This document shows, piece after piece, positions 1-12,769 of a stretch of DNA of 64,000 nucleotides; the first letter of the stretch is position 1; the number at the start of each line of letters is the position of its first letter. The stretch spans positions 124,001-188,000 of the forward strand of contig NZ_LRUC01000020.1 in assembly GCF_001550095.1 (NCBI RefSeq). Direction: 5' to 3'. This stretch comes from Celeribacter ethanolicus (GTDB lineage Bacteria > Pseudomonadota > Alphaproteobacteria > Rhodobacterales > Rhodobacteraceae). The notes under the pieces were generated by a model that saw only the letters and a program-made list of their open reading frames with translations, was not told where the DNA came from and did no database searches. Position numbers and translations under genes: made by a program.

Positions 1-198
1 GTCGACTTCGTGCTGAGCCAGGACGGTCAGGATCTCGTGCTCGACATGGGCTACATCCCGGCCCGGAACGGCATGGGCGTGCCCGCCGGCTTCCCGGCCC
101 GCGCGGACATCAAGCTGATGAGCTTCGACCCGATCGAGGCGCTCGCGAACGCCGAGGCCAACAAGGCGAAATTCACCGAGCTCTTCGGCGCAGAATAA
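1..198 (+). CDS. ABC transporter periplasmic substrate-binding protein, C-terminal end (partial)
   Basis: Only the last 65 codons lie in the window; the reading frame is open from base 1 and closes with TAA at 196-198. The visible tail is that of an extracellular solute-binding protein of the iron/phosphonate/polyamine type, but the assignment rests mainly on position: the stop shares one base with the start of a fused permease, and an ABC ATPase follows. The protein would capture the substrate in the periplasm for the transporter encoded downstream. The substrate cannot be read from this fragment. The rest of the gene is outside the window, so the signal peptide and binding lobes are unseen. 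Confidence 0.7.
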   Translation, partial: VDFVLSQDGQDLVLDMGYIPARNGMGVPAGFPARADIKLMSFDPIEALANAEANKAKFTELFGAE

Positions 199-1901
199 TG
201 TCCCCGACGCTGCAAAAAGGAGGCAGCCGGTCCGAGACCCGGCTGCTTTCCACCATTCTCCTCCTCGCGATCTGCCTGACGCTGGCACCGGTGCTGCGCC
301 TCCTCATCGAGGGCGTGACCGATCAGGGCGCGCCTTCGCTGTCGCGGATCGACACGGTGCTGGCACAGCCCGCGACGCTCAGCGCGCTCAGGCATTCGCT
401 GATCACCGCCGGTCTCGGCACGCTGGTCTCGCTCGTGCTGGGCTCTGCCTTCGCCTTTCTCGTCGCACTCACGGATCTGCGCGCCAAGGCGGCGCTGGTG
501 TTTTGCCTGATGATCCCGATGATGATCCCACCGCAAATCACCGCGCTGTCGTGGACGCAGATCATGGGCCCGTCTTCCGTTCTGCTGAAAACCCTTGGGA
601 TCGCACCACCTCTCGGTGCGCCGCAGCCGCTCTATTCGCCCGAAGGCATCATCTTTCTGCTGGGCATTCAGCACATGTCGATCGTTTTCCTGACCCTGCG
701 CGCAGGGCTGCGCGCCATCCCGCAGGACGTCGTCGAAGCCGCCCGGATCAGCGGCGCGCGCGGCCTGCGCACCTGGTGGCAGGTGATCATGCCGCTGACG
801 CTCCCGAGCCTCGCTGCGGGCACCGCCATCACCTTTGTCACCGCCCTCGGAAATTTCGGCATCCCCGCGATGCTCGGCATCCCTGCGGGCTATGTGACGC
901 TGCCGACGCTGGTCTACCAAAAACTCGCCGGGATGGGCACGGGCGTGCTGGCCGAGGTTTCCGTCCTCGCCATGCTGATCGGCGCCGTCGCGGTCACGGG
1001 CATTCTGATCCAGCGGTTTTTTCAAAGCCGCCAGAAAATCCATCTCGTCGGCTCCACTTCCCGCCCGCTCGCGATCCCCTTGGGTGCGGCGCGACTGCCG
1101 GTGGAAGCCCTGCTCTGGGCCGTGGTCTTTGCGATCCTCGTCCTGCCGATGTTCGGCCTTTTGGCGACCTCCCTGGTGCCTGCTTACGGCGTGCCGCTGC
1201 GCCTCGACACGGTGACGCTCGCCTCATGGAATGACGTGCTGTTCCGTCAGCCCGTCACCGCCCGCGCCTTCGTCAATTCCTTCAGCCTCGCCTCCGGGGC
1301 GGCGGTGGTTCTCATGCTGATCTGCCTGCCGCTGGCCTGGTTGATGGAGCGCCATCCCACCCGCCTCTCGCGCCTGTTCGACAGCCTGCTCGACCTGCCC
1401 TATGCGCTGCCGGGCGTCGTCCTCTCGATCTCGATGATCCTCCTGCTGATCAAGCTGCCCTTCACCGACGCCACGCTCTACGGCACGATCTGGATCATCT
1501 TCCTCGCCTATCTCGCGCGGTTCTTCGCCGTCATGTTCCGCCCGGTGCAGGCAAGCCTCAAGCAACTCGACCCTGCCATGGCCGAGGCCGCACAATCGGT
1601 CGGTGCGGGGCTGTTCCAGCGCCTGCGCGACGTGATCCTGCCGCTTTCAGCCCCTGCGGCGGCGGCGGGGGCGATCCTCGTCTTCCTCACCGCGTTCAAT
1701 GAGCTCACCGTCTCCGCGCTGCTGTGGTCCTCGGGCACCGAGACCCTCGGCGTGGTGATCTTCAACCTCGACGACAGCGGCGACACCGCCATGGCCAGCG
1801 CCCTCGCCATGACCATCGTCCTCGTGGTCATGGCACTCATGGGCCTGATCCAATTGGTCTCCCGCCGCTTCCCGAAAGGAGTCGTTCCATGGCAGACATA
1901 G
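198..1901 (+). CDS. ABC transporter permease, fused two-domain (FbpB-like)
   Basis: Inner-membrane permease of 567 residues, about twice the size of a single binding-protein-dependent permease. Two halves are visible, each with about six hydrophobic segments and its own cytoplasmic EAA loop: EAARISGARG near residue 180 and EAAQSVGAG near residue 460. Such fused permeases belong to the iron(III)/2-aminoethylphosphonate/thiamine group of importers. The ATG overlaps the TAA of the binding-protein gene by one base, and its 3' end overlaps the ATPase start by 13 bases, so the three genes are translationally coupled. The substrate is unknown; the phosphatases downstream make an organic phosphate a reasonable guess but this is inference. 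Confidence 0.9.
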   Translation: MSPTLQKGGSRSETRLLSTILLLAICLTLAPVLRLLIEGVTDQGAPSLSRIDTVLAQPATLSALRHSLITAGLGTLVSLVLGSAFAFLVALTDLRAKAALVFCLMIPMMIPPQITALSWTQIMGPSSVLLKTLGIAPPLGAPQPLYSPEGIIFLLGIQHMSIVFLTLRAGLRAIPQDVVEAARISGARGLRTWWQVIMPLTLPSLAAGTAITFVTALGNFGIPAMLGIPAGYVTLPTLVYQKLAGMGTGVLAEVSVLAMLIGAVAVTGILIQRFFQSRQKIHLVGSTSRPLAIPLGAARLPVEALLWAVVFAILVLPMFGLLATSLVPAYGVPLRLDTVTLASWNDVLFRQPVTARAFVNSFSLASGAAVVLMLICLPLAWLMERHPTRLSRLFDSLLDLPYALPGVVLSISMILLLIKLPFTDATLYGTIWIIFLAYLARFFAVMFRPVQASLKQLDPAMAEAAQSVGAGLFQRLRDVILPLSAPAAAAGAILVFLTAFNELTVSALLWSSGTETLGVVIFNLDDSGDTAMASALAMTIVLVVMALMGLIQLVSRRFPKGVVPWQT

Positions 1902-2929
1902 AGATCGCCTCTCTCGGCAAACTCTTCGCCGGCACCCCCGCGCTTCAGGATATCACGACCCGTTTCGAAGACGGCGAGTTCATCGCCCTCCTCGGCCCTT
2001 CGGGCTGTGGCAAGACCACACTCCTGCGCCTGCTCGCGGGCTTCGAGATGCCATCGAGCGGCAGGCTGAGCATCGGCGGGCGCGACATGGCGACGGCGAC
2101 CACGATGGTTCCGCCAGAAGATCGCAACATCGGATTCGTGTTCCAAAGTTACGCGCTCTGGCCGCATATGTCGGTGCGCCGCAACGTTTCCTACCCGCTG
2201 GAGATCCGCAAGCTGACGAAGCCCGAGATCGCCGACCGGACAGAGGCCGCACTCGCCGCCACCGGCCTCACGGCCTATGCTGATCGGATGCCCTCCGATC
2301 TTTCCGGCGGCCAACGCCAGAGGGTCGCGCTCGCCCGTTGTCTGGTGTCAGACCCGGACGCCGTTCTTCTCGATGAGCCGCTCGCCAATCTCGACGTCGC
2401 GCTGCGCGCCTCGATGCAGACCGTGTTCACCGATTTTCACAAACGCACCGGCGCGACCATGGTCTATGTCACCCACGATCAGGCCGAAGCCATGGCCATG
2501 GCCGACCGGATCGCGGTGATGGATCAGGGCCGCATCCAGCAATTCGACACGCCGCAAACGCTCTATGAACGACCGAAAAACCGGTTCGTGGCGGAATTCG
2601 TCGGGCGCGGCACCGTCGTGCCGGTGAACGCGGTCGAACACCGCGAAAGCCAACTCCACGCCGATGTGCTGGGCACCCGGATCGCGATCCGCAGCGATGC
2701 GACGACCGGCATCAGCCACGTCTGCCTGCGCCCTGAGAACCTGAGCATTTCCGAGACCGGCGATCTGCGCGCGAAAGTGGCGCGTGTCACCTATCTCGGT
2801 GGCAAATACCTTCTGGAGACCGTCTCCGCCTGCGGCACACGGCTTCTGGCCGAGACCCGCGCGAAATTCGAGGTCGGCACCCAGCTCGGTCTCACCATCA
2901 CCACCCCATGGGCCTTTTCCGAGGATTGA
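1889..2929 (+). CDS. ABC transporter ATP-binding protein
   Basis: Cytoplasmic ATPase of 346 residues that powers the preceding permease. Walker A GPSGCGKTT is near residue 36, the signature LSGGQRQRV near 138, Walker B with D-loop LLDEPLANLD near 158 and the H-loop THD near 195; a C-terminal region of about 100 residues resembles a TOBE-type regulatory domain. The ATG at 1889 is chosen because AAAGGA sits 8 bases upstream and translation from there gives a standard N-terminus; an in-frame codon further upstream lies inside the permease gene. The stop TGA is directly followed by the ATG of the metallo-hydrolase, so the cassette continues without a gap. Confidence 0.93.
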   Translation: MADIEIASLGKLFAGTPALQDITTRFEDGEFIALLGPSGCGKTTLLRLLAGFEMPSSGRLSIGGRDMATATTMVPPEDRNIGFVFQSYALWPHMSVRRNVSYPLEIRKLTKPEIADRTEAALAATGLTAYADRMPSDLSGGQRQRVALARCLVSDPDAVLLDEPLANLDVALRASMQTVFTDFHKRTGATMVYVTHDQAEAMAMADRIAVMDQGRIQQFDTPQTLYERPKNRFVAEFVGRGTVVPVNAVEHRESQLHADVLGTRIAIRSDATTGISHVCLRPENLSISETGDLRAKVARVTYLGGKYLLETVSACGTRLLAETRAKFEVGTQLGLTITTPWAFSED

Positions 2930-3997
2930 ATGCAAAGCGTCAGACTACTTTCCGGCATCGGGGACAAGGGGCCCGCCTGCATACAATTGACCGTCGAGGA
3001 TCGCATCTGGCTTCTGGATTGCGGCTTCGGCCCCGAAGCCAATGCGCATTTCAATCCCGACTGGCTCAAGGGCGCCTCCGCAGTGTTCATCACCCATGAC
3101 CACATCGACCATATCGGCGGCGCCTCCCATGCGGTGGAGGCCGGTCTTCCGATCTACGCCACCGCGCAGACCGCCAAATCCCTGCCCCCCGCCGCCAAAG
3201 TGCATCTTTTGCCGGAACAGGGCGAAACCGTCATCGACGGGGTGAAACTCACCACCGGGCGCAACGGCCATGCCATGGGCGGGGTCTGGATGCATTTCGA
3301 TCTGGGCGAGGGGCTGTTCTATTCCGGCGACTGGTCCGAGGAATCCGACTGGTTCCCGCTCGACCTGCCGCCGCCCGCCGCAACCGCCATTCTCGATTGC
3401 TCCTACCATCTCGACGACGTGCCGCAGGCCGAACGCTTCGCGGTGCTCGATGCCCTGCTCGACGGGTTGCACGGTCAGGTGCTTTTGCCTGTGCCGCCGT
3501 CGGGGCGCGCAGGCGAGATGGCCCTGCACCTGATCCGGCGCCATGGCGAAGCCAGCGTGATGCTCGACCCGGAATGCCAGACTGCGCTGCGCGCCGCCCT
3601 TGCCAGCCGCACCCTCGCCCCTGAGGTACAGGAGATCGCGCCCCTCCTCGACCGAGGCCCGATGGAGATGGCGCGCTTTCTGATCTGCGACACGCCCAAT
3701 GCCGATGGCGGTGCCGCCTGGGGGTACGTGCGTGCCTGGAACGAAAGCGGCCGTCTGGGCCGGGACGCCCATGTGGTATTCACCGGCCATATGACGGCCC
3801 ACGCCCGTGGTATCTGCGCCGTGCCCGGCGGGTATTTCCGGCGCTGGAACGTCCATCCGCCGCTGCGCGATCAGGTCAAGATGCTCGAACGTCTGGGCGC
3901 CAAACGCTTTGCCCCCGCCTTTTGCGCCCAACCGGAAGATTACCTGATCGAAGATCTCGGCGTGGAAATCTTCCTGCACGATCCGGTGCGGTTATGA
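2930..3997 (+). CDS. MBL-fold metallo-hydrolase, beta-CASP/RNase J-like
   Basis: Cytoplasmic protein of 355 residues with the metallo-beta-lactamase signature HDHIDH (His56, His58, Asp60, His61), a further metal-ligand candidate in NGHAMGG (His114) and SGDW (Asp134). The second half contains FTGHMTAHARG and a late NVHPPLRDQ segment; this layout resembles nuclease-type (CPSF/RNase J) hydrolases rather than glyoxalase or lactamase types. Family members cleave phosphodiester bonds, but nuclease activity here is inferred. The ATG directly abuts the ATPase stop, and the stop overlaps the next ATG, which implies that the enzyme works on the imported compound or a product of it. Confidence 0.75.
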   Translation: MQSVRLLSGIGDKGPACIQLTVEDRIWLLDCGFGPEANAHFNPDWLKGASAVFITHDHIDHIGGASHAVEAGLPIYATAQTAKSLPPAAKVHLLPEQGETVIDGVKLTTGRNGHAMGGVWMHFDLGEGLFYSGDWSEESDWFPLDLPPPAATAILDCSYHLDDVPQAERFAVLDALLDGLHGQVLLPVPPSGRAGEMALHLIRRHGEASVMLDPECQTALRAALASRTLAPEVQEIAPLLDRGPMEMARFLICDTPNADGGAAWGYVRAWNESGRLGRDAHVVFTGHMTAHARGICAVPGGYFRRWNVHPPLRDQVKMLERLGAKRFAPAFCAQPEDYLIEDLGVEIFLHDPVRL

Positions 3998-4533
3998 CAG
4001 AAATCCCAGCCAAAAGCTTCTGTCTGATCCGGCATGGCGAGACCACGGCCAATGCCGAAGGCCTGATCGCCGGGCGCACGGATGTGCCGCTCACGGAACT
4101 GGGGCGGGCGCAGGCCCGCGCCCTCTCCCGGCGCGATTGGCCCGCCCGGATCGCGCTCTACGCCAGCCCGATGGCACGCGCGCAGGAAACCTGCGAACTG
4201 GCCTTTCCCGACCGCCCCTTCACCCTGCACGACGGGCTGCGCGAACGCGACTGGGGCGTCTATGAGGGCCGCCCCCTGCGCACGCAACCCGACAGGAACG
4301 CGACCCCCGAACAGGGGGAAAGCTGGCCGGACATGATCCGGCGCGTCGAACGGGCGATTGTCGGGATCTGCCAGACCGGCACCGACACCCTGCCCGTCCT
4401 GGTCTGCCATTCCGGCGTCATCCGCGCCGCGCGCCTGCTCTGGACCACCGGAGAGGTCGGCTCCCGCCCCCCCAATGCCACACCTCTTTTGTTCAAACGC
4501 TCGGGCAGCACCTTCAAGGAAAAAACCCTATGA
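3994..4533 (+). CDS. Histidine phosphatase family protein (phosphoglycerate mutase-like)
   Basis: Protein of 179 residues with the family hallmark RHGET at residues 13-17, where His14 is the expected phospho-acceptor. The acid/arginine segment LRERDWGVYEGR and the second histidine in VLVCHSGVIRA complete the active site. The family removes phosphate from small phosphomonoesters or, less often, moves it. ATG at 3994 lies in an ATGA overlap with the stop of the metallo-hydrolase gene, which decides the start; its own stop overlaps the next gene in the same way. Substrate unknown; the cassette suggests dephosphorylation of an imported compound. Confidence 0.88.
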   Translation: MTEIPAKSFCLIRHGETTANAEGLIAGRTDVPLTELGRAQARALSRRDWPARIALYASPMARAQETCELAFPDRPFTLHDGLRERDWGVYEGRPLRTQPDRNATPEQGESWPDMIRRVERAIVGICQTGTDTLPVLVCHSGVIRAARLLWTTGEVGSRPPNATPLLFKRSGSTFKEKTL

Positions 4534-4991
4534 CACATCCCTCCAAACCCTGCGTGGTCTTCGATGTCGATGGAACGCTTGCGGAATTCGATGCCGACAG
4601 GCTCGGTCATCTCGTGCACGGGGTCGAGAAACACTGGGACGCCTTTCATCACGCCATGGCCGACGCCCCCCCGATCGCTCCGATCGCACGCCTGTTGCGA
4701 CGGCTGAAGGAGAGCGGCGAGACCATCGTGATCTGTTCCGGCCGGCCAAGCGGCTGGGCCGAACACACCATGGCCTGGCTCCAGAAACACGACCTGCCTT
4801 TCGACGGCCTCTACCTGCGTGCGGCGGATCAGGACGCGGCCAGCGACCCCGATGTCAAACGCCGCGCGCTTGCCGAGATGAAGGCCGACGGGCTCGCCCC
4901 CTGGCTGATCATCGACGACCGCAGCTCCGTCGTCGAAGCCTGGCGCGCCGAAGGGCTCGTCTGCCTGCAATGTGCACCGGGCGAGTTCTAA
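4530..4991 (+). CDS. HAD-family phosphatase resembling the T4 polynucleotide kinase 3'-phosphatase domain
   Basis: Protein of 153 residues consisting of a single HAD domain. The catalytic motif FDVDGT places the nucleophile at Asp12 and the general acid at Asp14; SGR starts at Ser70, a lysine follows at 110, and IIDDRSSVVEAW carries the Asp129-Asp130 metal site. This last segment and the ending QCAPGEF match, as I remember it, the end of the phosphatase domain of T4 Pnk, which strips 3'-phosphates and 2',3'-cyclic phosphates from nucleic acid ends and nucleotides. There is no kinase domain. It overlaps the histidine phosphatase gene by ATGA and is the last gene of the cassette. Action on nucleotide 3'-phosphates is inference. 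Confidence 0.8.
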   Translation: MTHPSKPCVVFDVDGTLAEFDADRLGHLVHGVEKHWDAFHHAMADAPPIAPIARLLRRLKESGETIVICSGRPSGWAEHTMAWLQKHDLPFDGLYLRAADQDAASDPDVKRRALAEMKADGLAPWLIIDDRSSVVEAWRAEGLVCLQCAPGEF

Positions 4992-5776: not shown

Positions 5777-5866
5777 TGGCGGAGACGAAGGGATTCGAAC
5801 CCTCGAGACGGTTTCCCGCCTACTCCCTTAGCAGGGGAGCGCCTTCGACCACTCGGCCACGTCTCC
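5777..5866 (-). tRNA. tRNA-Ser (anticodon GCT)
   Basis: Read on the minus strand, the 90-base gene starts GGAGACG and ends with the complementary CGTCTCC, discriminator G and an encoded CCA at 5777-5779. The anticodon loop CTGCTAA has the anticodon GCT at 5830-5832, reading serine AGC/AGT codons. The long variable arm typical of serine tRNAs and the T-loop GGTTCGAATCC are present. Confidence 0.97.
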
Positions 5867-10017: not shown

Positions 10018-11328
10018 ATGACCAAACCCGTTTACGGTGCAGCGCTTGCTGCGCTTATGCTTGCCGGTGCCGCCCAGGCCCAAGAGGCCTTTCCCGCCAC
10101 GCTCAAAGCCCAGGCCGAGCTTTCCGGCCACACCTTCGTCCCCGCCCCCGAAGGCGCCTCGGCCTATTACAACACCTCCGGCCGCTTCACCAATGGCGCG
10201 CGCAATGAGGCGCTTTACAGCAATTTCCAAGAAGCCACCGGCCTCGCGCTGCCTTTCCCCGGCCAGCCGCTTCAGGGGTTTTCCGGCATCCGCTCCTTGG
10301 GTGACGACCGTTTCCTCGTGCTGACGGACAACGGTTTCGGCTCCAAAGCCAATTCGTCGGACATCGTCCTGATGTTCAACATCGTCAAAGTCGATTGGGA
10401 GACCGGTCGTGTTGGCATCGAAAAAACGGTCCAACTGTCCGACCCGGACCACGTCGTCCCCTTCCCGATCATGAACGAAGCCACAGAGGCCCGCACCCTC
10501 ACCGGCGCGGATTTCGATCTGGAATCCATCCAGCCGGTTGGTGAAAACTTCTGGATCGGCGACGAGTTCGGCCCGTGGCTCATCGAAGTGAACGGCGAAG
10601 GCGAAGTGCAACAAATTCTGGCGACCGAGCCGGGCGGCCAGTTGATCCAATCCCCCGACAACTTCTTTGTGGCCACACCGAACCCGGGTGCCGAACTGCC
10701 CGAGACCGTCGTCTCCTACCGCTCCGGAGGCTATGAGGGCATGGCCTTGTCCGAGGACATGAAAACCCTCTACCCGCTGTTGGAAAAGCCGGTCTATGAC
10801 CCGGAAACCGGCGGTAAGAAACATGTCGGCGGCAAACCGGTTCTGTCGATGTTCGAACTGTCCACCGAGACCGGCGCATGGGGTGACACGGTGCGCTACT
10901 TCCCGCTTGAGGACGAAAACCACGCCATCGGGGATTTCAACCTGATCGAAGGCACCCGCGGCCTCATCATCGAGCGCGACAACTTCCAGGGCGATCCGCG
11001 CGAAGGCTGGTCGGAGCAACCGGCGATGTTCAAACGCATCTACCTCATTGATCTGGAGCGGATGGACGAAAACAATGTCTTGGAAAAAATCGCCTACATC
11101 GACCTGATGAACATTCAGGACCCCGACGGCATCGCACCGCGTGGCACGATGGATGGGGTCTACACCTTCCCCTATTTCACCATCGAGGATGTGGATCGTG
11201 TCGACGAGACCACCATCGTCGTCGCCAATGACAACAACTACCCCTTCTCGACCGGTCGCCAGCAAGGCCGTGTCGACGACAACGAGATGATCCTTCTCGA
11301 CGTCGCGGACTTCCTGAAGGCAGAGTAA
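10018..11328 (+). CDS. Secreted esterase-like/phytase-like family protein
   Basis: Protein of 436 residues with a Sec signal peptide: basic start, hydrophobic stretch and cleavage probably after AQA near residue 21. The mature part reads as a beta-propeller of the phytase-like family (an esterase-like domain seen in many alphaproteobacteria), with segments such as LTDNGFGSKANSSD, GDEFGPWLIEV and YEGMALSED. These proteins are periplasmic or secreted; enzymatic activity on phosphoesters is suggested by the family name but is not established for this subgroup. It is preceded by 135 bases of intergenic DNA and followed by a hairpin, consistent with a single-gene unit. Confidence 0.82.
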   Translation: MTKPVYGAALAALMLAGAAQAQEAFPATLKAQAELSGHTFVPAPEGASAYYNTSGRFTNGARNEALYSNFQEATGLALPFPGQPLQGFSGIRSLGDDRFLVLTDNGFGSKANSSDIVLMFNIVKVDWETGRVGIEKTVQLSDPDHVVPFPIMNEATEARTLTGADFDLESIQPVGENFWIGDEFGPWLIEVNGEGEVQQILATEPGGQLIQSPDNFFVATPNPGAELPETVVSYRSGGYEGMALSEDMKTLYPLLEKPVYDPETGGKKHVGGKPVLSMFELSTETGAWGDTVRYFPLEDENHAIGDFNLIEGTRGLIIERDNFQGDPREGWSEQPAMFKRIYLIDLERMDENNVLEKIAYIDLMNIQDPDGIAPRGTMDGVYTFPYFTIEDVDRVDETTIVVANDNNYPFSTGRQQGRVDDNEMILLDVADFLKAE

Positions 11329-11334
11329 TTACCG

Positions 11335-11366
11335 CCCCGGAGCGGCCTCCCCGTCGCTCCGGGGTT
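11335..11366 (+). terminator. Probable terminator after the phytase-like gene
   Basis: A 10-base GC-rich inverted repeat (CCCCGGAGCG at 11335-11344 and CGCTCCGGGG at 11355-11364) begins 6 bases after the stop codon. Only two T residues follow, so it is a weak intrinsic terminator or a processing-stable 3' end. Confidence 0.55.
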
Positions 11367-11428
11367 CCCCCATCTGGCCTTCCCTCTTTTGGCCTCATAT
11401 GCTGCGCCCGAACCATGAGGAGGCGCAG

Positions 11429-12769
11429 ATGTGGCTTGAACGCAGAGAGAGTTGGAGCGGACATTCCGAAGACGCGCGCGGTGCGGGCGATGTGGACTAT
11501 GCCCGCGTGATCCATTCGGCCTCCTTTCGGCGGCTTCAGGGCAAGACGCAAATCCTCAACCTCGGCGACAGCGATTTCTATCGCACGCGGCTGACGCATT
11601 CGCTGGAAGTGGCGCAGATCGCCGGAGGCCTCGCGCGCCAGTTGGAACAGAGCTTTCCCAACCATCCCGCCACTGCCCACCTGCCGGATCGTTCGATGAT
11701 CCACGCCATCGGCTGTTCGCACGATCTGGGCCATCCGCCCTTCGGTCATGGCGGCGAGGTGGCGCTGAATTATTGCATGCGCGAAGCGGGCGGGTTCGAG
11801 GGCAACGGACAAAGCCTGCGCATCCTATCCCGGCTGGAGAGCTTTTCCCAAAACGCGGGCGCAAACCTCACCCGGCGCAGCCTTATGGGGCTGTTGAAAT
11901 ATCCGGTTTCTTACGCACAGGCGCGCAACTCCGCGCTCAGGCCGAAACTGAGCGACAGTCCCGCAACGCTTAAACTCATCGACACTGAGGCCTCGACCCC
12001 GCCGAAATGTTACCTCGACAGCGAGCAGGACGTGGTGGAGTGGGTGCTTTCACCGCTCTCCCCCGAAGACCGCGCAGCGTTTTGTGCCATGCGACCGGTG
12101 GAGGCGGGAAAACACCGCAAGGCGCTGCATAAATCCTTTGATTGCAGCATCATGGATCTGGCCGATGACATCGCCTACGGGGTGCATGATCTGGAGGACG
12201 CGATTGCGCTCATGCTTTTGACGCGTGAGGATTTCGTGGCGCATGTGTCGGCGGATGAGATCGGCGATTTTCTCGACATGCTCAAAGGCAAATACCCGGA
12301 TCAGTTCGGCAATGACGTCTACGGCCAGATGCTCGATGGCTTGTTCGGCGACCGCAACACCCGCAAGCGCTTCATCTCGCGGTTTGTGAATTACTTCATC
12401 ACCGCTGTGGGTTACACCGAAGTACCAGAATTCGCCGAACCGCTCCTGCGCTACCGCGCCAGCCTGCCCTCGGCACGGCGTCCGGTGTTGAAAGCGCTGA
12501 AAGACCTGGTGTTCAAAGTGGTGATCAAAAGCCCCAACGTGCAGCAGCTCGAATTCAAGGGCCAGCAGATGGTGGTCTCTGTCTTCGAAGCGCTCTGTTC
12601 CGATCCCGAGCGGCTTTTGCCGCGCGATCATCAGGAGCGCTATTCCGAAAGTGCCGGCGACCTTCGGGTGATCTGCGACTATGTCGCCGGCATGACCGAT
12701 GCGGCGCTCCTCAAGACCTATGAACGTCTCTTCGCGCCGCGCATGGGATCGGTGTTCGACCGGCTCTGA
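11429..12769 (+). CDS. dGTPase-like HD-domain deoxynucleoside triphosphate triphosphohydrolase
   Basis: Cytoplasmic protein of 446 residues related to Dgt, which hydrolyses dNTPs to the nucleoside and triphosphate. The HD metal site is visible as RLTHSLEVAQ near residue 60 and SHDLGHPPFGHGGE near residue 105, and DLADDIAYGVHDLEDA supplies the second Asp region. ATG at 11429 is preferred because GAGGAG lies seven bases upstream; an ATG at 11399 would add ten residues before that site. Alphaproteobacterial members are annotated as dGTPase-like proteins and may act on several dNTPs. Its stop abuts the stop of the convergent sugar-nucleotide gene with no spacer. Confidence 0.92.
   Translation: MWLERRESWSGHSEDARGAGDVDYARVIHSASFRRLQGKTQILNLGDSDFYRTRLTHSLEVAQIAGGLARQLEQSFPNHPATAHLPDRSMIHAIGCSHDLGHPPFGHGGEVALNYCMREAGGFEGNGQSLRILSRLESFSQNAGANLTRRSLMGLLKYPVSYAQARNSALRPKLSDSPATLKLIDTEASTPPKCYLDSEQDVVEWVLSPLSPEDRAAFCAMRPVEAGKHRKALHKSFDCSIMDLADDIAYGVHDLEDAIALMLLTREDFVAHVSADEIGDFLDMLKGKYPDQFGNDVYGQMLDGLFGDRNTRKRFISRFVNYFITAVGYTEVPEFAEPLLRYRASLPSARRPVLKALKDLVFKVVIKSPNVQQLEFKGQQMVVSVFEALCSDPERLLPRDHQERYSESAGDLRVICDYVAGMTDAALLKTYERLFAPRMGSVFDRL

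Follow-up and report, generated by a model that had tools for sequence, protein, structure and literature searches.

The stretch considered here raises the question of what enzymes resembling those that act on nucleic acid ends are doing inside a transporter operon. The window, meaning the whole 64,000 nucleotides that were analysed (Celeribacter ethanolicus, contig NZ_LRUC01000020.1, positions 124,001 to 188,000), opens with a compact cassette in which an ATP-binding cassette (ABC) importer is followed by a metallo-hydrolase and two phosphatases. It is highly probable that this cassette serves organophosphate scavenging. The fuller statement, that a phosphodiester is imported, cleaved and dephosphorylated by a system which responds to phosphate starvation and is induced by its substrate, is likely, with a lower degree of assurance.

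An initial annotation of the sequence had described five complete genes and the end of a sixth, acting together as an uptake-and-dephosphorylation cassette. Recomputation of the coordinates has shown that the genes and all five junctions were placed exactly, Pfam scans have upheld the protein families, and the idea of a coherent cassette is supported. All genes lie on the forward strand. The first is the C-terminal end (1..198) of a periplasmic substrate-binding protein (SBP) of the AfuA/FbpA class with an SBP_bac_6 domain, the full gene of which begins before the window (G000:C13:123230-124198). Its TAA stop codon shares one base with the ATG, at 198, of a fused ABC permease (198..1901) with two BPD_transp_1 stretches, for which the best named model is PhnU2, far below its cut-off. 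The permease gene overlaps by 13 bases with that of the importer ATPase (1889..2929; ABC_tran and TOBE_2 domains; best named model potA, below cut-off), and this in turn is followed with zero gap by the MBL-fold metallo-hydrolase (MBL; 2930..3997; Lactamase_B_2). A histidine phosphatase (HIS; 3994..4533; His_Phos_1, branch 1) and a stand-alone HAD phosphatase (4530..4991) complete the series, each entered through an ATGA junction. A divergent DeoR-family regulator gene (L002:7291-8058) lies just before the window, facing the operon. The natural unit thus exceeds the window and comprises seven genes, namely DeoR, divergent, and then SBP, permease, ATPase, MBL, HIS and HAD.

This order of genes is not due to chance. 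A search for HAD in 394 genomes of the family gave matches in 23, of which 13 were close (at least 63% identity, the own genome included), four had 34-39% identity and six had E-values of 2.9e-4 to 8.6e-4. The complete unit was present in 13 of the 13 genomes with a close orthologue. No cassette surrounds HAD in the four genomes at 34-39% identity, one of which (L040) has a general-type permease and an ATPase about 8 kb from it. A scan of GTDB contigs with the MBL gave 196 relatives, the best 80 of which were kept as loci, and 64 of these have all seven genes in order; a recognisable DeoR gene is missing in nine and the SBP in one (L114). The gene maps behind these counts were made with a simple codon-usage caller which misses genes, such as the MBL of L144, the HIS of L142 and the ATPase of L146. 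Conservation of the gene order had been proposed as a check in the initial annotation, and since it extends far beyond one genome, chance co-occurrence in a single genome is refuted. Going by their labels, the 80 loci come from genera such as Celeribacter, Sulfitobacter, Shimia, Tritonibacter, Paracoccus, Devosia, Roseibium, Thalassospira and Kiloniella. Phaeobacter accounts for 27 of the 70 plasmid records with an MBL match, and pPGA2_239 of P. inhibens 2.10 carries all seven genes, generically named; the names in a Phaeobacter plasmid record include 'iron ABC transporter permease', 'MBL fold metallo-hydrolase' and 'HAD family acid phosphatase'. Two database labels were also noted: L076 (JAHVJD010000008.1) is labelled Nocardioides marinus and has a Rhodobacterales-type cassette, a label that looks wrong, and L113 is labelled Kiloniella with an MBL at 80% identity, which may reflect horizontal transfer or a mislabel.

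The sequence of the metallo-hydrolase matches aCPSF1, CPSF73, Ysh1 and TTHA0252. An AlphaFold2 model built from an alignment of 50 of the 80 loci and the window (51 rows) reached a predicted local distance difference test score (pLDDT) of 93.5 and a predicted TM-score (pTM) of 0.90. When this model was compared with the PDB by Foldseek, the 50 best matches were all beta-CASP proteins, with TMq values of 0.66-0.83, including CPSF73/100, aCPSF, TTHA0252, Integrator 11, RNase J, FttA and Cas14 entries; some of these entries we take to be beta-CASP from general knowledge. The MBL is thus predicted by its model to be a beta-CASP-fold metallo-hydrolase, and the beta-CASP-like hydrolase of the initial annotation is borne out by the fold search and by the presence of motifs 2, 3, 4, A and B. 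The residues of motif 2 (HxHxDH; H56, H58, D60 and H61), motif 3 (H114) and motif 4 (D134) occur in 51/51 rows, as do the acidic residue of motif A (D156) and H309 of motif B, which keep their positions in 40/40 cassette rows of a wider set. A GRxxE stretch of beta-CASP nucleases is present as well. Fold, motifs and this stretch are common to the MBL and to the nucleases CPSF73, aCPSF1, TTHA0252, RNase J and SNM1. Unlike these, it has 355 residues, it departs from them in motif C (see below) and its gene stands in an importer operon rather than beside RNA or DNA processing genes. UlaG, the lactonase-type MBL, was considered as an alternative assignment and rejected, as it appears neither among the 11 NCBIfam matches nor among the 50 best folds. 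PADLOC gave no defence-system match for the MBL, HAD, HIS or one DSP/PTP-like protein.

Of the two phosphatases, HAD scores 81.9 bits against the Pfam family HAD_PNKP (PF25109; cut-off 27.6), its nearest proteins are Pnkp1 and T4 Pnk, and it matches the phage polynucleotide-kinase family phrog_415 at 1.1e-36. The RNA-repair domain HAD_SAK is matched as well, at a score under its cut-off. The 3'-phosphatase of T4 Pnk has the catalytic residues D165, D167, S211, R213, D254, K258, D277 and D278. Their counterparts in HAD were counted by hand on an alignment; D12, D14, R72, D106, K110, D129 and D130 are invariant in 13 rows and position 70 is S or T; R176 of T4 Pnk is matched only roughly, by the invariant R24. 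The T4 Pnk-like phosphatase that had been proposed is upheld by the profile and by these residues, and the motifs FDVDGTL, IIDDRSSVVEAW and terminal GEF are present as quoted. Membership of PF25109 and the catalytic residues are shared with the 3'-phosphatase domain of T4 Pnk and Pnkp1. Unlike T4 Pnk, HAD is a stand-alone protein of 153 residues without a kinase domain and with about 13 residues inserted after DxD. Action on the 3'-phosphate of nucleic acids or nucleotides is a possible, predicted activity. For HIS, the second enzyme, the nearest model is alpha-ribazole-5'-phosphate phosphatase, at 82.6 bits where the cut-off is 162.9.

Searches with the MBL in other lineages found matches in 17/398 genomes of the phylum and in 28/247, 10/244, 5/247 and 7/194 genomes of further sets, two sets overlapping. 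Six of these genomes match only at 1e-20 to 1e-23, and the three that were inspected (L190-L192) have ordinary beta-CASP RNases or no core and are not cassettes. Altogether 42 distant neighbourhoods were mapped, 34 of which fall into four clean layouts where importer and MBL are constant and the phosphatase varies. Layout A (11 loci) has HIS and HAD in nine loci and HAD alone in two, with DeoR in 11/11. A DSP/PTP-like phosphatase takes their place in layout B1 (8 loci, LacI in 5/8), HIS in layout B2 (4 loci, no constant regulator) and SurE in layout C (11 loci, SorC-type regulator in 9/11). These families were checked with Pfam on examples (two DSP/PTP-like, one SurE, one LacI, one SorC-type and one B2 HIS protein), the rest being labelled by BLAST likeness. 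The other eight neighbourhoods are L190-L192 and five partial or odd loci (L144, L166, L167, L175 and L183). In separate trees of MBL, SBP and permease each layout forms a single clade (support for type A in the MBL tree only 92/85); the trees had 38 rows, made up of 33 of the 42 distant loci, L152 also being left out, and five of 13 Rhodobacterales. Because four unrelated phosphatase folds follow the same importer and MBL, the phosphomonoesterase step appears to be a shared need. The cassette also occurs in other classes of the phylum, probably in gammaproteobacteria.

A possible fifth layout, type D, was met when the SBP was used as a query in 269 genomes. There were 13 matches, four of them in genomes that the phylum search with the MBL had not picked up. 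In three of these (L238, L239 and L240) the importer is followed by an EEP-family gene, a 250-residue protein without known family and a PhzF-like protein, and in the fourth (L237) it stands alone. The EEP proteins are 73-76% alike, that of L240 being weakly like ExeM/NucH and ExoIII, and may represent a different diesterase. When the three genomes were searched directly with a wide MBL alignment, all matches were partial (best E 2.2e-8) and no cassette-type MBL came up. The link between EEP gene and importer is less firm in L239, since a gap of about 1.3 kb precedes the gene. For the 250-residue protein no Pfam or NCBIfam match was found, only one negligible chain at E 0.093. In Lentibacter (L083:2955-5017), what looks like a UgpC/MalK-type ATPase and another EEP-family protein (PF03372) were seen directly upstream of the SBP.

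What the importer carries can be approached through its binding protein. In profile searches the SBP is nearest to AfuA (3.6e-26), followed by 8x1a (VcA0625) and P5PA. A model of the SBP from a 38-row alignment, the first row of which was the Celeribacter homologue L042 and not the window's own SBP, gave AfuA with glucose-6-phosphate as its first Foldseek match. AfuABC, for hexose phosphates, and P5PAB, for pyridoxal phosphate (PLP), have the closest solved binding proteins by sequence. The ABC importer of the initial annotation is upheld by its protein families; as to its iron/phosphonate type, the SBP is closest to the sugar-phosphate and PLP binders AfuA and P5PA, and the named models PhnS2 and PhnU2 score far below their cut-offs. 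According to excerpts of the published work, AfuA and P5PA bind monoesters (sugar phosphates and PLP), and AfuA holds the phosphate by S37, S148, G149 and T150 among others and the sugar by H205, D206 and E229. The residues aligned to the phosphate contacts are T56, S159, G160 and A161, the first three invariant in 41 rows; those aligned to the sugar contacts are V212, D213 and V238, with no His at 212 in 41/41 rows. These aligned residues suggest that most of the phosphate-binding end has been preserved, in contrast to the sugar end. The permease is fused here, another difference from AfuABC, and no enzymes are known to travel with that system. In 41 SBPs drawn from every layout with an MBL, K120, PSPLYSGAA and G193-N194-G195 do not vary, a pattern suggestive of a single class of ligand throughout.

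The flanks of the cassette were also searched for clues to the substrate. When 572 neighbour genes of the 80 loci were clustered, no nucleoside-salvage or sugar-catabolic family stood out; among the 22 largest clusters, generic ATPases came first (16 loci) and the next reached five loci. Single loci have suggestive neighbours. In L148, genes that look like those for mannitol/fructuronate dehydrogenase, UxuA and Gfo/Idh proteins lie beside a DSP-type cassette, with like-sized genes in L149, which could hint at a link with sugar acids. In L142, where HIS is at 11019-11570, a DUF4432 (PF14486) gene (L142:12063-13241) directly follows HAD, and similar-sized genes occur soon after HAD in L186 and L188.

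The region between DeoR and SBP was compared in 68 distinct regions, left after those sharing a 40-mer had been dropped. An operator palindrome, TTTCGWWCGAAA, is present in 65 of the 68, with 55 of 75 sites placed 16-28 bp before the SBP start; about 0.004 would be expected in 73 regions, a set including some genomes twice. An exact copy of the full 14-mer occurs once in the own genome, at this locus, and once in G232, which rules against a wider DeoR regulon. A direct repeat resembling the Pho box reaches at least 11/14 in 36/68 regions vs 11/1360 dinucleotide shuffles, and in 54/68 (6.4 expected) the best site is found 60-90 bp before the SBP start, on the same strand as the operon. With the consensus fixed beforehand (CTGTCAT repeats), the counts are 17/68 vs 9/1360 shuffles, with 47/68 in place. 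Other intergenic regions of the same loci reach 11 in 24/283 cases, against 44/83 (duplicates included). Among 40 loci that represent other lineages and layouts, each searched over 300 bp, 17/40 reached at least 12/14 vs 2/800 shuffles (A 3/11, B1 3/8, B2 2/4, C 6/12, L144 1/1, D 2/4); some loci have no such site, with best scores of 8 in L146, 9 in L168 and 8 in L238. The use of the substrate as a phosphorus source, which had been put forward earlier, is supported by these sites upstream in many relatives, the site of the own genome being weak. From their sequence, the palindrome and the repeat are candidate binding sites for the DeoR repressor and PhoB, respectively.

In the reading which we prefer, a small organophosphate would be captured by the SBP and taken up intact through the ABC importer; this compound is most likely a phosphodiester that ends in a sugar- or nucleoside-like group. 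The MBL, a putative cytoplasmic phosphodiesterase, would then hydrolyse the diester to a phosphomonoester, from which one or two exchangeable phosphatases (here the putative phosphomonoesterase HIS and the PNKP-type HAD) would release inorganic phosphate. The DeoR-family repressor would act at the palindrome, which lies some 22 bp ahead of the SBP start, and be relieved by the phosphomonoester intermediate, and PhoB would activate from the box 60-90 bp upstream.

Comparable systems are known. The acc operon of Agrobacterium, as presented in excerpts of the work on it, encodes the importer AccA-E, the phosphodiesterase AccF, the putative phosphatase AccG and the repressor AccR, and AccF makes arabinose-2-phosphate, the effector of AccR. 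By protein family, the importer, phosphodiesterase, phosphatase and dedicated repressor have putative counterparts in the cassette, a likeness in the way the two may work. Unlike acc, the cassette has a beta-CASP MBL as its putative diesterase, HIS and a PNKP-type HAD as phosphatases and an SBP of the AfuA/FbpA class. The acc operon is under dual control, which includes phosphate. In glycerophosphodiester uptake by ugpBAEC-ugpQ, the importer of the phosphodiester is likewise Pho-controlled and its operon also encodes a diesterase that works inside the cell; there, however, the diesterase is an unrelated GDPD, a phosphatase pair is lacking and the SBP belongs to a different cluster. A Pseudomonas study, in an excerpt, lists a phosphate-responsive 'Fe3+ ABC transporter'. 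The cassette was not found described in literature searches (open-licence papers), and neither was a beta-CASP enzyme in this role or the swapping of phosphatases; as a diester importer linked to Pho and paired with a diesterase inside the cell, it would be of a known kind.

Several observations weigh against the import and cleavage of a phosphodiester as proposed here. Motif C of beta-CASP proteins is H in the RNA type and V in the DNA type, and its His is absent from the MBL, where F331 occurs in 51/51 and C332 in 48/51 rows; the stretch has F in 27/27 A/B rows and His in 13/13 type-C rows, with a register uncertain by one or two residues. Since the His is replaced, the MBL would be a divergent member rather than a canonical RNase or DNase. 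In the fold search of the SBP model, the iron-binding FutA1 and HitA rank second and third with almost the same E-value as AfuA and higher TM-scores, so fold alone cannot settle the ligand, and because only D206 of the three essential sugar residues is kept, AfuA's ligand would not be that of the SBP. HAD is absent in 15/80 MBL-found loci, no phosphatase was seen beside the MBL in L144, and the DSP/PTP-like proteins are at or below Pfam cut-offs. Neither HIS nor HAD is recognisable after the MBL in L105; this cassette looks broken, because only a short frame (L105:10041-10230) follows. The window's own Pho-like site scores 10/14, which is chance level (reached by 242/1660 shuffles and 94/283 other intergenic regions), and the Y positions of the Pho consensus and the operator pattern were set after the regions had been seen. 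Finally, related species are not independent.

As to the ligand, nucleotide and sugar diesters both fit; salvage is supported and nucleotide specificity is possible. In nucleotide salvage, a reading that is tenable if short of probable, 2',3'-cyclic or 3'-nucleotides or very short oligonucleotides would be imported, opened or shortened by the beta-CASP enzyme and freed of their 3'-phosphate by HAD (SurE elsewhere), with any other phosphate left to the CobC-like HIS. The MBL, PNKP-type HAD, SurE and EEP families all include enzymes acting on nucleic acids or nucleotides, and the same direction is indicated by the HAD_SAK match, the nearest relative of HIS, the weak likeness of a type D EEP protein to NucH and ExoIII, and the alternative phosphatases, a SurE 5'/3'-nucleotidase and a DSP/PTP-like protein with a marginal match to PTP-SAK (RNA repair). 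An excerpt of a review reports E. coli SurE to be active on 3'-AMP. Against salvage of nucleotides stand the sugar-phosphate and PLP binders nearest to the SBP, regulators of the DeoR/GlpR, LacI and SorC types and the lack of a prominent nucleoside family around the 80 loci; family names, moreover, do not fix substrates, DSP and HIS being broad families. A bolder form, in which a dedicated importer of high affinity takes up intact nucleotides or tiny RNA or DNA fragments and a beta-CASP nuclease with interchangeable end phosphatases (PNKP-type HAD, SurE, DSP/PTP-like or one ExoIII-like EEP enzyme) has been diverted from the processing of nucleic acids to nutrition when phosphate is scarce, is somewhat unlikely. 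Sugars and sugar phosphates are the usual effectors of DeoR, LacI and SorC regulators, and uptake of a sugar phosphodiester in the manner of the agrocinopine acc operon, with the released sugar phosphate as effector of the repressor, is a genuine contender without being probable. It draws on the same functional parts as acc, the AfuA-like SBP, the DeoR, LacI and SorC/Sugar-bind regulators and the DUF4432 gene beside L142, and it is opposed by the absence of a prominent sugar-catabolic family in the 80 loci and the single exact operator site in the own genome.

Other explanations give up the diester or the phosphate ester altogether. The phosphatases might act directly on an imported phosphomonoester, the MBL catalysing another reaction such as that of a lactonase or the hydrolysis of a non-phosphorus ester. 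AfuA and P5PA do bind monoesters, the MBL lacks the motif-C His and the DeoR gene weakly matches UlaR, but the absence of UlaG from the 50 best folds and the 11 NCBIfam matches and the presence in type D of EEP, another phosphoesterase family, after the importer make this improbable. An importer of phosphonates of the 2-aminoethylphosphonate type beside unrelated enzymes would agree with the Pho-box-like sites and with the best named models, PhnS2 for the SBP and PhnU2 for the permease, while for the ATPase PhnT2 ranks third, behind two models of potA. The scores are far below the cut-offs, however (138 of 393, 183 of 593 and 306 of 458 bits), no gene for cleavage of the carbon-phosphorus bond is present in the cassette and phosphatases do not cut such bonds, so that this is very improbable. 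Least credible is an iron importer placed by chance beside nucleic-acid enzymes. It has the RefSeq name 'iron ABC transporter permease' and the ranks of FutA1 and HitA in its favour, and is contradicted by the conserved order, the agreement of importer and MBL trees on the layouts and the Pho-box-like sites.

Much of the microbiota of sea and soil is nourished by dissolved organic phosphorus, of which phosphodiesters make up a large and poorly assigned share. If the phosphodiester reading is true, a beta-CASP enzyme would here act on a small nutrient, which is rare, and the repeated replacement of the phosphatase, perhaps also of the diesterase, would show a step that is under selection while its enzymes change. 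Its presence in several alphaproteobacterial genera and in other classes of the phylum offers a set of proteins for testing.

Two further observations concern the own genome. In contigs C10 and C48 of the own genome (G000), five Pho-pattern matches recur at a constant offset of 111,717 bases, a possible assembly duplication. Just downstream of the cassette, a tRNA-Ser (GCT) gene lies on the reverse strand at 5777-5866 of the window, the sole tRNA found there by ARAGORN.

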